A stretch of DNA of 64,000 nucleotides. Source: Psychroflexus planctonicus (GTDB lineage Bacteria; Bacteroidota; Bacteroidia; Flavobacteriales; Flavobacteriaceae). The notes under the pieces are model-generated. The model was not told the DNA's origin. It searched no databases and saw only the letters and a program-made list of their open reading frames with translations. This document shows positions 22,964-26,755 of this stretch, in pieces (the first letter of the stretch is position 1; each line of letters begins with the position of its first letter). Both the position numbers and the translations under genes were made by a program. Where the stretch lies: NCBI RefSeq assembly GCF_014640195.1, contig NZ_BMGM01000006.1, positions 1 to 64,000 on the forward strand, given 5' to 3'.

Positions 22964-23747
22964 GCTTTTGTGTTTTAATATCGGTTTTACTCTGATTTGA
23001 AACAATAGAATTTGGCGCCACAGAACTAGTTAACCATACATTTCCTCCAACAACTGAATTTTTCCCAATTACTGTTTTACCTCCTAAAATAGTAGCATTG
23101 GCATAAATAGTAACATGATCTTCAATGCTTGGATGGCGCTTGGTCTCTTGCATAGATTTATCTACTGAATGTGCTCCCAAAGTTACTCCTTGGTAAATTT
23201 TTACATGATTTTGAATATGAGATGTTTCCCCAATTACAACTCCGGTTCCATGGTCTATAAAAAATGGAACTCCAATTTCTGCTCCCGGATTAATGTCAAT
23301 TCCAGTAGTACTATGAGCGCATTCTGCCATTAATCTTGGAACCAATGGAAGACCAAATTTTAGCAATGCATGACTTAAACGATAAGTAGCAATGGCGTAA
23401 AAACCTGGATAGGCAAGATATACTTCTGCTAAGGAATGTGCTGCTGGGTCGTTTTCTAATATAAACTGCGCATCTTCATTAAGTTGTTTTTGTATTTTGG
23501 GAATTTCAGAAATGTAATCTTCCCAAATATTCCTACAAGTCTGCTCTGGTTTGTAGCAAACTAAATCGGCTAATTCTTCAAAAGATGTTTCCAGTTTTTG
23601 TAGGGTTTCATTAACCGCAGTATCGGAATCGAATAAACATAAAAATAGCTTCCTCGTAAAAGCAGTGGTTTTTTCTTTTATAATGTAGGACTGCTTTAAC
23701 TTGCTTTTTATTTCTTGAATATCTTCTTGAATGCTTTTTGTAATCAA
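22953..23747 (-). CDS. cysE: Serine O-acetyltransferase
   Basis: This 264-residue enzyme acetylates serine, the substrate supply for CysM. The N-terminal half is helical, with [20 protein letters not shown] near residue 100. The C-terminal half is a left-handed beta-helix of hexapeptide repeats with [11 protein letters not shown], the catalytic-histidine segment [13 protein letters not shown] and [19 protein letters not shown]. The start is TTG: an in-frame stop lies at 23769-23771 and no ATG occurs between. A consensus -7 box lies at 23764-23771. The length matches the Bacteroidota EpsC-type enzyme. Confidence 0.92.
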
Positions 23748-23763
23748 ATGCTTTATTTTTAAA

Positions 23764-23771
23764 CAAAATTA
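23764..23771 (-). promoter_or_regulatory. Promoter -7 box of cysE-cysM
   Basis: On the minus strand TAATTTTG fits TAnnTTTG and lies 16 bases before the TTG start of cysE. No -33 TTG is visible. Confidence 0.5.
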
Positions 23772-23891
23772 AGGTAGATGGTGAATTACATCTAAAGATT
23801 ATCATTTTATTAGGGATTAGGTAAATTCAGAATTGGGAATGTCACCCCTAACGGGGTTGAATTACTTTACCATGCTTTTGTTAATGATATT

Positions 23892-23943
23892 TCGCCCCTA
23901 ATGGGGCTATTGTTATTTCGCTCCTACAGAGCTTAATATTATT
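23892..23943 (+). repeat. Left REP-like dimer
   Basis: Two 26-base units each start TTCGC and contain a palindrome: GCCCC-TAAT-GGGGC and GCTC-CTACA-GAGC. A third related palindrome, ACCCC-TAAC-GGGGT, lies 50 bases further left at 23844-23857. The stems vary while the pairing is kept, which is a sign of selection on structure. Confidence 0.7.
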
Positions 23944-24018
23944 TTTTCTATCTTTATTTTTTGAATTTTAATATGTTGTTTTGCAATTGATTAACTAGCT
24001 TTTATTTAAAGATAAATT

Positions 24019-24480
24019 ATGGCTAATACATTTACACAAGTCTATATACAAATCGTATTTACTGTTAAGGGTAGACAAAATCTAATTCATAAAAAATGGA
24101 AAGATGAACTATATAAATACATATGTGGTATTGTCAATGCTAAGCAACAAAAAGTTTATGCTATTGGTGGAGTTGCTGATCATATACATATCTTGGTGAG
24201 TATAAAACCAAATATTTCAATTTCAGAACTGGTAAGGAGCATAAAGGCAAATTCATCTAAATGGATCAATGAAAAAGGATTGGTTTTAGGGAAATTTCAA
24301 TGGCAAGGTGGTTTTGGAGCTTTTTCATATGCACAATCTCAGTTAGATACTGTAATTAAGTATATCAATAACCAAGAAAAACATCACAAAGTGAAAACCT
24401 TCAAAGATGAATATACTGAATTTTTAGAAAAATTTGAAATTGATTATGATGAAAAATATTTATTTAAATTCATTGAATAA
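24019..24480 (+). CDS. IS200/IS605-like (REP-associated type) tyrosine transposase
   Basis: This 153-residue single-domain HUH enzyme has the metal-binding pair His55 and His57 (ADHIHILVS) and a catalytic tyrosine, most likely Tyr115 in VIKYINNQ, with Gln119 following. The sequence appears intact. Y1 enzymes of this kind cut single-stranded DNA at hairpins and join ends through a 5'-phosphotyrosine. No TnpB gene accompanies it. The inverted palindrome pairs on both sides suggest that it belongs to the RAYT group, which maintains or spreads REP sequences and is often kept as a single-copy domesticated gene. Confidence 0.87.
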   Translation: MANTFTQVYIQIVFTVKGRQNLIHKKWKDELYKYICGIVNAKQQKVYAIGGVADHIHILVSIKPNISISELVRSIKANSSKWINEKGLVLGKFQWQGGFGAFSYAQSQLDTVIKYINNQEKHHKVKTFKDEYTEFLEKFEIDYDEKYLFKFIE

Positions 24481-24534
24481 ATACAATTAATAGCTCCGTG
24501 AGGAGCAACATCACAATAGCTCCGTTAGGAGCGA
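24481..24534 (-). repeat. Right REP-like dimer, inverted relative to the left one
   Basis: GCTCC-GTGA-GGAGC (24493-24506) and GCTCC-GTTA-GGAGC (24519-24532) follow directly after the transposase stop. Read on the minus strand they begin TCGCTCC, as the left dimer does on the plus strand. Confidence 0.7.
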
Positions 24535-24590
24535 CATAATTTCAGGAAACAATAAAATTCAACAGTTTATAAAGAAATCCCTTTTTTTTT

Positions 24591-24626
24591 CGCAAAGTCC
24601 GCAAAGGATTCGCAAAGAACACGAAG
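24591..24626. repeat. CGCAAAG short-period repeat
   Basis: CGCAAAG-TC-CGCAAAG-GATT-CGCAAAG is followed by AACACGAAG. A reverse-complement version lies at 48308-48332, and a looser one at 37637-37662. All three sit in non-coding gaps. Confidence 0.55.
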
Positions 24627-24649
24627 AAAAATCTTTAATGAAAATTAGG

Positions 24650-26755
24650 CTAACTAATATAATTCCACAATTGCTTGTTTTTCATGTTGGTTTGATAGGT
24701 AAAATTGACCATGCTATTCTTCGGTAACAGCATTTTAGGATCTTCTTTCAACAATACATGAGCTTCTTTTCTGGCCAATGCCAAAATGGAACCATCTTGA
24801 ACCAAATCGGCTATTTTTAATTGCAAAACACCGCTTTGTTGAGTTCCCATCAAATCGCCAGGACCGCGTAATTTTAAATCTACCTCAGCAATTTTAAAAC
24901 CATCGTTGGTTTGGGTCATGGTTTCAAGTCGGGTTTTTCCGTCCTTGCTCAATTTGTGGCCCGTAAGTAAAACACAATAACTCTGTTCTGCTCCACGACC
25001 TACTCTACCACGCAACTGATGCAATTGCGATAAGCCAAAACGCTCCGCACTTTCAATTAGCATAATACTGGCATTGGGCACGTTTACGCCGACTTCAATT
25101 ACCGTTGTAGCCACCATAATTTGGGTTTTCCCTTCTACAAAACGCTGCATTTCAAAAGCTTTATCTTCGGGTTTCATTTTACCATGAACTATGGAAACTT
25201 GGTAATCGGGTTTGGGAAAATACCGCACAATACTTTCGTAACCATCCATCAAATCTTTGTAATCAAAATTATCCGATTCTTCAATTAATGGATAAACCAC
25301 ATAAGCTTGCCTGCCTTTGGTCAATTCATCTTTTAAAAATTTAAAAACCTTTAAACGATTTGCATCATACCGATGAACTGTTTTTATAGGTTTTCGACCG
25401 GGTGGCAATTCATCGATCACCGAAATATCTAAATCGCCATACACACTCATGGCTAAAGTCCGTGGAATTGGTGTTGCCGTCATGACCATTACATGTGGCG
25501 GTAAGCTATTTTTCTTCCAGAGTTTAGCGCGTTGAGCCACGCCAAAACGATGCTGCTCATCGATAATGGCTAAGCCCAAGTTTTTAAATTTCACCTTGTC
25601 TTCAATTAACGCATGGGTACCGATTAAGATGTGCAATTCGCCAGAAGCTAACTCTTCATGTAATAATCTTCTTTCTTTGGTTTTAGTCGAACCCGTAAGT
25701 AATTTCACGTTCAACCCAACTTTTTCAGCTAATTCAGAAATGCCTTCAAAATGTTGTATCGCTAAAATTTCGGTAGGCGCCATCATGCAAGCTTGGTATC
25801 CATTTCCGATGGCAATGAGCATGCTTAAAAAACCAACAATGGTTTTCCCTGAACCTACATCGCCTTGTAACAAACGATTCATTTGTGCGTTGCTGCGCAA
25901 ATCTTTCCTGATTTCTTTCAAAACTCGTTTTTGAGCATGGGTAAGTTCAAAAGGCAAATGATTTTTATAAAAATCCATAAAATAATCACCTACTTCAGGA
26001 AAGGGAAAGCCTTTAATTTTATGTTTGGCAACTAAATTTCTACGAATGAGTTGCAGCTGAACATAAAAAAACTCTTCAAACTTCAATCTAAACCGAGCTC
26101 TTTCTAAATCTTGTACCGATGCCGGAAAATGAACATCAAAAATGGCTTTGGTTTTCGAAACTAACTTATGTTTTTCACGGATTTCTTCAGGCAAAGTTTC
26201 GGTAAATCCTTTGGTACACTGCTTCAACAAATTGAAGGTCATCGTGTTCATTTTCCGGTTAGTTAAACCCCGTTTTTGCAATTTTTCAGTAGACGGATAA
26301 ACCGGTTGCATGCGTTGTGCTTTCTTTTTTTCAAAATCTTCCAACAAATCCAATTCAGGATGCGGCATGCTGGGCTTGTTTCCAAACCATTTCAACTTTC
26401 CAAAAGCCAGATAAGGCGTGTTGGTTTTTATGTTTTCTCGAATCCATTTATGACCTTGAAACCATACCAGTTCCATCTGACCGGTTTCGTCTTCAAAAAC
26501 AGCTACCATACGCTTTCCACGCTTTTGTGGAACCATTTTCACAGCCGTAATTTTACCGATAATCTGCACTTCCGCATTGGTGTTTTGCAAAGCCGAAATT
26601 TTATAAAACTGAGTACGGTCTATGTAACGGTAGGGAAACAAACTCAACAAATCTTGAAACGAATGGATATTGAGTTCAGTGCGCAACAAATCGGCCCGAG
26701 CGGGACCAACGCCTTTTAAATATTCAATTGGAGCTTTTAAATCTTGCGCATTCAT
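24650..26755 (-). CDS. recG: ATP-dependent DNA helicase RecG
   Basis: This 701-residue helicase remodels stalled replication forks and Holliday junctions. The N-terminal wedge domain holds an OB-fold (about 60-160). Walker A is GDVGSGKT, Walker B is the DEQH box in IIDEQHRFGVAQR, and further motifs are TATPIPRTLA, TTVIEVGVNVPNA and QLRGRVGRG. The start chosen is the ATG at 26755 (MNAQDLKAPIEYLKGVGP), where homologues begin; the frame extends 22 codons upstream without typical sequence. It stands alone on its strand. Confidence 0.94.
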   Translation of the reverse strand: MNAQDLKAPIEYLKGVGPARADLLRTELNIHSFQDLLSLFPYRYIDRTQFYKISALQNTNAEVQIIGKITAVKMVPQKRGKRMVAVFEDETGQMELVWFQGHKWIRENIKTNTPYLAFGKLKWFGNKPSMPHPELDLLEDFEKKKAQRMQPVYPSTEKLQKRGLTNRKMNTMTFNLLKQCTKGFTETLPEEIREKHKLVSKTKAIFDVHFPASVQDLERARFRLKFEEFFYVQLQLIRRNLVAKHKIKGFPFPEVGDYFMDFYKNHLPFELTHAQKRVLKEIRKDLRSNAQMNRLLQGDVGSGKTIVGFLSMLIAIGNGYQACMMAPTEILAIQHFEGISELAEKVGLNVKLLTGSTKTKERRLLHEELASGELHILIGTHALIEDKVKFKNLGLAIIDEQHRFGVAQRAKLWKKNSLPPHVMVMTATPIPRTLAMSVYGDLDISVIDELPPGRKPIKTVHRYDANRLKVFKFLKDELTKGRQAYVVYPLIEESDNFDYKDLMDGYESIVRYFPKPDYQVSIVHGKMKPEDKAFEMQRFVEGKTQIMVATTVIEVGVNVPNASIMLIESAERFGLSQLHQLRGRVGRGAEQSYCVLLTGHKLSKDGKTRLETMTQTNDGFKIAEVDLKLRGPGDLMGTQQSGVLQLKIADLVQDGSILALARKEAHVLLKEDPKMLLPKNSMVNFTYQTNMKNKQLWNYIS

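Follow-up and report, generated by a model that had tools for sequence, protein, structure and literature searches.

Probable REPtron-like units of the IS200 lineage: palindromes with a 3' tag at loci of a TnpA-Y1 subclass 1.2 transposase in Psychroflexus planctonicus and its relatives

INTRODUCTION

The closest described systems to the locus analyzed here are the REPtron, in which a RAYT enzyme is accompanied by REPs (as at E. coli rayT), the IS200/IS605 elements IS608 and ISDra2 (subclass 1.1), and the REPINs and BIMEs. Canonical REPs carry the tetranucleotide GTAG 5' of the hairpin, and the right end of IS200/IS605 elements such as IS608 consists of a hairpin, then about 10 nt, then a tetranucleotide. 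IS608 has been described as cutting single-stranded DNA where it pairs with a guide located 5' of each hairpin (PMC5934647), and TnpA-REP as having GTAG in the guide position and cutting at CT or CA (PMC8266576). TnpA-Y1 subclass 1.2 is characterized by Quentin et al. (2018, PMC6006769) as proteins of about 150 aa with the motifs DH[IV]H, WQ, and Y---Q--HH, present at low copy number in Bacteroidetes, and the table of that paper gives no REPs for it. CGTC-tagged repeats in Bacteroidetes are mentioned in one paper (PMC3733652), and RepRanger tabulates palindrome counts for two Flavobacterium species (PMC12306157); in the parts of the open-licence literature consulted, we found no description of REPs for subclass 1.2.

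Here we analyze a stretch of 64,000 nucleotides from P. planctonicus (hereafter, the window, meaning the whole stretch), in which a preliminary description had noticed a RAYT-like transposase framed by inverted palindromes, and compare its locus with those of relatives.

RESULTS

The window contains a real open reading frame of 153 aa, flanked by two minus-strand genes that we take to be cysE and recG:

24019..24480, plus strand: Y1 HUH transposase with TnpA-Y1 subclass 1.2 motifs, assigned from profiles, alignment, and the motif definition in PMC6006769

The protein scored 100.3 bits against Y1_Tnp (PF01797; cut-off, 23), and the HUH motif and one catalytic Tyr within this domain mark it as a Y1 HUH transposase with predicted catalysis. 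The residues His55, His57, and Tyr115, already named in the preliminary description, were invariant in an alignment of the window protein with 37 relatives. Its assignment to the canonical RAYTs was not supported, as the protein reached 27 bits against the REP_Tyr (RAYT) model, far under the cut-off of 80, and 72 bits against the IS200 model, above the cut-off of 55; the best fold matches were IS608 TnpA and ISDra2 TnpA. The signature of subclass 1.2 was found in full, with D54-H55-I56-H57, W95-Q96, and Y115-INN-Q119-EK-H122-H123, and the copy number was low, with a single copy in the 3.1-Mb genome. The same genome holds three more Y1 transposases (L151, L152, and L153) with class-2-like motifs (NHVH, NHLH, and NHFH; YVHKNP, YIHNNP, and YINANA), which adjoin what by eye look like palindromes of their own.

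We compared 95 loci, comprising 80 of 116 confirmed loci, 14 from a search of the genus, and the window. Of the 32 rows from the genus search, the window aside, 14 entered the comparison directly, two (P. salis and another) were represented by L042 and L073, and 15 were excluded as partial, broken, or weak; the window and its near-identical counterpart L042 were each counted. Among the 93 proteins readable in one frame, the window's included and those of L109 and L120 left out as unreadable, Y[IV]..Q..HH was present in 91 and [DN]HxH in 92. Hairpins were scanned as a 5-bp stem with a loop of 3 to 5 nt and at least 3 G or C; with 6-bp stems, scanning failed to pick up the family of the window itself. 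Their density was 7.30/kb within 300 nt of the gene versus 0.98/kb at 1.2 to 2.8 kb, and at least three similar hairpins formed a family in 55 of the 95 loci. Many family consensuses had a 13-nt tail on one side (e.g., GACATCATAATAG, GACATATTTATAG, TCCATGTCTGTAG, and AATCTGTTTGTAG). As read from sequence, most relatives appear to share one design, consisting of a 5-bp stem, a loop of 3 or 4 nt, and a 3' tail of 13 nt whose last three bases are TAG (ATAG or GTAG in most cases), which we call the full rule.

The position of the tag was scored without alignment. Of 811 proximal flanks read in orientation, 164 (60 loci) had TAG starting at position 11 of the tail, compared with 2 to 22 flanks for each other offset and with 22 of 498 distal flanks, from 6 loci; with the window's stem type excluded, the count was 102 of 533 flanks, from 41 loci. 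Within 500 nt of the gene, 189 full-rule sites were found in 59 of the 95 loci, while 20 first-order Markov shuffles gave 0 to 4 sites and distal sequence held 20 in 262 kb. The 131 distinct tails carried A or G at position 10 in 125 cases, A at position 4 in 112, and T at position 5 in 116. Sites defined by the tail alone had at least 4 of 5 stem pairs in 60 of 72 cases, versus 5 of 72 after the upstream letters were shuffled and 8 of 45 in distal sequence, and each stem position showed several Watson-Crick pair types (scored on 44 sites that had a 3-nt loop and three or more of the 5 pairs).

With 5-nt loops also allowed, the full rule was found at 60 of the 95 loci. A full-rule REP within 500 nt was absent in 35 of the 95 loci, and in 24 it was absent even with one stem mismatch; the flank was shorter than 500 nt in 15 of the 95. 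A Bacteroidales-type clade (L111, L112, L114-L118, and L121) showed no full-rule REPs even with one stem mismatch and could possibly serve as a natural control. Two further loci had features of their own. At L043, the transposase and its REPs are surrounded by four copies of a short sequence that codes for a protein tail (QLVYQLY-LT-EEI); with the same pattern, L046 gave one copy and the remaining 93 loci gave none. At L018, the transposase is immediately flanked on each side by direct repeats of about 300 nt, and part of a second transposase copy lies upstream, an arrangement suggestive of a tandem duplication.

At the window locus, three palindromes lie to the left of the transposase on the minus strand and two to the right on the plus strand:

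23844..23857, minus strand: outer left palindrome, ACCCC-GTTA-GGGGT as read on the minus strand; the tail starts with GACAT and is without TAG
23881..23907, minus strand: left REP 1, GCCCC-ATTA-GGGGC (palindrome at 23894-23907) with tail GAAATATCATTAA, without TAG
23907..23932, minus strand: left REP 2, GCTCT-GTA-GGAGC (palindrome at 23920-23932), with one stem mismatch and tail GAAATAACAATAG
24493..24519, plus strand: right REP 1, GCTCC-GTGA-GGAGC (palindrome at 24493-24506) with tail AACATCACAATAG, in agreement with the full rule
24519..24545, plus strand: right REP 2, GCTCC-GTTA-GGAGC (palindrome at 24519-24532) with tail GACATAATTTCAG, carrying CAG instead of TAG

That the transposase is bordered by palindromes of one family, as had been proposed, was confirmed by a consensus drawn from them, which with up to three mismatches matched four times in the 64 kb, always at this locus (0.06 expected). 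The spacing of 26 bases between left edges, the inversion of the left pair relative to the right pair, and the extra palindrome at 23844-23857 were likewise described correctly. Counted along the tail-bearing strand, the spacing is 25 on the left, where the loop has 3 nt, and 26 on the right, where it has 4 nt; left REP 1 opens with the G of the TAG of left REP 2, and right REP 2 opens with that of right REP 1. Only one of the five palindromes follows the full rule, and this one, right REP 1, is the sole full-rule site in the 229-kb contig (C6), so that the window locus itself is degenerate. Its tails point outwards on both sides, an arrangement that none of the 37 loci with full-rule REPs upstream and downstream shows, and the REPs of the window may be surviving outer members of arrays whose inner REPs were lost.

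The polarity of the design was compared with that of the E. coli rayT locus, which was analyzed with a similar script. None of its six hairpins had TAG at position 11; five had CTAC at tail positions 10 to 13 on one strand, which corresponds to a 5' GTAG, and one had neither. At the loci compared here, 417 hairpins were read on both strands, and of the 834 feet, 11 (6 loci) had GT[AG]G at 0 to 2 nt 5' of the stem. The REP design of these loci, with its tag 3' of the hairpin, is the mirror image of that of canonical REPs.

The REPs are also oriented relative to the gene. An unbiased alignment of upstream with downstream flanks in 92 loci (sequence was too short at L082, L107, and L015) outscored each of 60 shuffles in the inverted sense in 54 loci and in the direct sense in 38; inverted alignments were not favored over direct ones (41 versus 48, with 3 ties), because long direct repeats of array segments dominate, and orientation was therefore scored on single REPs. 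The full-rule REP nearest to the gene faced inward in 41 of 47 loci upstream (41:6) and in 43 of 50 loci downstream (43:7). Where full-rule REPs were present on both sides (37 loci), 31 loci had inward orientation on both and none had outward orientation on both; some loci also contained outer REPs of the opposite orientation. The next similar hairpin on the same strand as a full-rule REP followed at 25 nt in 13 cases, 26 nt in 5, 27 nt in 5, and 44 to 69 nt in 112, with no spacing of 28 to 43 nt. A spacing of 25 always went with 3-nt loops (13/13) and one of 26 with 4-nt loops (5/5), as is expected if the next stem begins with the G of the TAG, a relation that the spacing of 27 does not fit. 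The longer array spacings cluster at 47 to 59 nt, roughly twice the 25/26 unit.

Copies elsewhere in the P. planctonicus genome were few. The 4-nt-loop pattern matched three times, always at the transposase locus, and a longer version of it with up to three mismatches matched eight times (four at the locus; reversed control, two). The 3-nt-loop pattern with up to two mismatches gave five matches (reversed control, one), one at the locus, three at C2:7285-7377, and one with 2 mismatches on C1. A candidate at C1:51453 was set aside, as it lies inside an open frame. In these searches, which used GCYCC-type stems, repeats were found at two places, with no wide scatter. The region at C2:7285-7377 (L231) is a tandem array of four direct repeats whose starts are separated by 25, 24, and 25 nt, with the tags TAG, TTG, and TAG and a last unit without a tag at the expected place. 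It is intergenic, between two genes on the same strand that are presumably hisB and hisH, and no convincing match to a transposase was found there (best E value, 7.6). The exact form of the array was absent from P. salis at the pattern AGCYCCNNNGGRGCGRHAT, and the counterpart of the array region did not turn up in about 1.0 Mb of P. salis covered, in which what we take to be hisA is preceded by another gene. The preliminary description had expected REPs scattered through the genome; one further intergenic array is in keeping with this, while two places fall short of the scale of a REP population. The array does supply the palindrome copies away from the locus that it had proposed to look for, and the transposase is present in one full-length copy, not in multiple ones as in an ordinary IS.

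In other genomes, the association of transposase and REP-like palindromes noticed in the preliminary description recurred. A full-rule REP lay within 600 nt of 9 of 15 Y1 genes examined and was lacking at 6; one of the nine (L212) is without Y---Q--HH, and some of the six have the motif. F. phragmitis and F. foetidum have several Y1 genes each, and the paralogs compared within each of the two were 36 to 65% identical, with no near-copies. Three F. phragmitis paralogs with Y---Q--HH, 53 to 65% identical, have stems GCTTC, GTTCC, and GCCTC, and their tails differ as well.

The pattern AGCYCCNNNGGRGCGRHAT occurred 276 times in 31 of 40 genomes and zero times in every reversed control. Counts per genome were mostly below 15, with more in F. 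phragmitis (27), F. foetidum (40), G037 (41), and G042 (55). Among the matches listed, those in G028, G029, G033, and G036 were all close to the transposase, and those in F. foetidum and G037 were spread across many contigs. At 12 F. foetidum places, chosen by hand and mostly for a pair-like look, 10 held a convergent pair 20 to 63 nt apart, so that such hairpins are dispersed as inverted pairs in this genome; 25 of the 26 hairpins at these places lay outside open frames of 80 codons, and only 4 of the 26 had TAG at the expected place. Across 249 Flavobacteriaceae, 27 of which have the transposase (E value, 1e-15 or lower), the degenerate pattern CYCNNNGRGNNNNATNTTNRTAG gave 38 matches in 32 genomes compared with about 33 in the reversed control; it was not clearly enriched, and being too loose, it gives no evidence of wide dispersal.

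The transposase of P. salis is 99% identical to that of the window, and the similarity extends to the surrounding DNA:

23690..24650, no strand assigned, approximate limits: island of near-99% identity with P. salis, against a mean of 80-81% over the aligned DNA

The contig of the window and the P. salis contig C6 aligned over 39 kb with a mean identity of 81%, and 500-bp windows above 95% occurred over the transposase locus only (up to 99.6%). With a further 800 kb of P. salis included, 51 kb aligned with a mean of 80%, and the island at the transposase locus was still the only one; a 173-bp stretch at 98% is a tRNA pair. On the right-hand side, P. salis has five REPs and the window two, and the difference is exactly 78 nt, that is, three 26-nt units. 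The identity tract runs roughly 110 to 150 nt past the outermost REPs on both sides, which fits homologous exchange.

In 13 genomes of relatives outside Psychroflexus, identity was 68 to 82% for the transposase and 51 to 58% for the presumed recG; in other Psychroflexus, it was 67 to 74% for recG (full-length matches) and 43 to 63% for the transposase (where there was a full-length match). In a tree, the window and P. salis stood among non-Psychroflexus rows, apart from other Psychroflexus, on branches with SH-aLRT of 88 to 91 (none at 95 or above). Among 27 loci with flanks of about 1.5 kb, the adjacency of cysE and recG was seen in the window genome and P. salis only, and no empty site was seen among these loci. 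Judged by identity and tree position, the transposase locus appears to have moved horizontally between species.

DISCUSSION

Motifs, size, copy number, and host group place the window protein with TnpA-Y1 subclass 1.2 as defined in PMC6006769, whose table has the subclass without REPs, whereas REP-like hairpins accompany 60 of the 95 loci analyzed here by the full rule. This contradicts the published description and not the membership by motifs; by the same rule, 35 of the 95 loci agree with the published absence of REPs. We consider it likely that the locus is a REPtron-like unit of a lineage on the IS200 side, in which a single-copy subclass 1.2 enzyme is accompanied by palindromes of its own. 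It resembles the REPtron of E. coli rayT in the single-copy Y1 enzyme bracketed by palindromes, in the inverted arrangement, and in the divergence of repeats from one paralog to another, but differs in the class of the protein and in a tag located 3' of the hairpin, 9 nt away, in place of a 5' GTAG. IS608 and ISDra2 are closest in fold and sequence profile and share the hairpin followed by a short 3' motif, as at a right end; unlike them, the family of the window has single or divergent copies and inverted, repeated hairpins, with no left end recognized. The convergent hairpin pairs of F. foetidum outside long open frames recall REPINs and BIMEs, from which the P. planctonicus genome differs in having one further array found, made of direct repeats.

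Several steps can be envisaged for such a unit: (i) the enzyme would bind the hairpin as single-stranded DNA; (ii) cleavage would occur about 10 nt 3' of the hairpin at the RTAG tag, with the geometry of an IS200/IS605 right end; (iii) units would be rejoined next to an existing RTA|G, which would give rise to arrays of 25/26 nt; (iv) the enzyme would act in trans at least at times, so that the array found in the his region would be accounted for; and (v) the locus would spread horizontally between species. RTAG is probably the cut or target site, at which units would rejoin, because the constant element lies 3' of the hairpin, like the cleavage site of a right end. No clear 5' guide was seen beside isolated (nontandem) REPs in 42 flanks.

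Other readings of the locus have to be weighed against a REPtron-like unit. An ordinary IS200/IS605 insertion sequence, the palindromes being its left and right ends, would account for a protein above the IS200 cut-off with a fold like that of IS608 TnpA and for the succession of hairpin, some 10 nt, and tetranucleotide, which resembles the right end of these elements. Such an element would be expected in multiple near-identical copies, and what we found is one genomic copy and, in F. foetidum and F. phragmitis, paralogs 36 to 65% identical; moreover, the REPs occur in inverted orientation and often in several copies, unlike a single left end and a single right end that share a strand, and the genome contains a REP array without a transposase. 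We therefore regard an ordinary insertion sequence as unlikely. It is very improbable that the enzyme is a canonical RAYT (TnpA-REP, class 2) whose GTAG-type REPs drifted in Bacteroidota: the protein stays under the model cut-off (27 bits versus 80), a 5' GT[AG]G stood at 11 of 834 hairpin feet, the motifs are those of subclass 1.2, and in the E. coli rayT control no hairpin has TAG at position 11 and 5 of 6 show the opposite polarity, even though the RAYT model is matched by 34 of 38 aligned members with an E value of 0.001 or lower, the gene is a single copy bracketed by REPs, and inverted pairs are dispersed in F. foetidum. The palindromes might also have no connection with the transposase and be transcription terminators or RNA elements, given two terminator-like sites in the region (shuffled mean, 0.4) and a his array between genes on one strand, yet no Rfam family reached threshold in the window region and nine relatives, arrays stand on both sides with inward polarity, and paralogs differ in stems and tails, which makes this account highly doubtful.

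The island shared with P. salis is a matter apart. It quite probably arose when an intergenic stretch happened to undergo homologous recombination with P. salis, in which the transposase had no role; this reading concerns the island only and is compatible with a REPtron-like explanation of the locus. The overshoot beyond the outermost REPs on both sides is what a recombination tract would leave, while the centering of the island on the transposase, and its being the sole place above 95% in 39 kb and then 51 kb of aligned DNA, speak against chance. A bolder proposal would be a second, independent REP system that arose from the IS200 side with reversed tag polarity, whose enzyme, by nicking its own REPs, would drive a homing-like exchange of the locus and leave islands of the P. 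salis type; we offer it as a speculation that is rather improbable.

To conclude, a REPtron-like unit of this kind would assign REP-like substrates to a transposase subclass that the published table gives as having none, and a simple rule (a hairpin, 9 nt, and RTAG) may be used to find such repeats. The REP system would stand near the well-studied IS608 enzyme in sequence and fold, which would make the domestication of a transposase testable.
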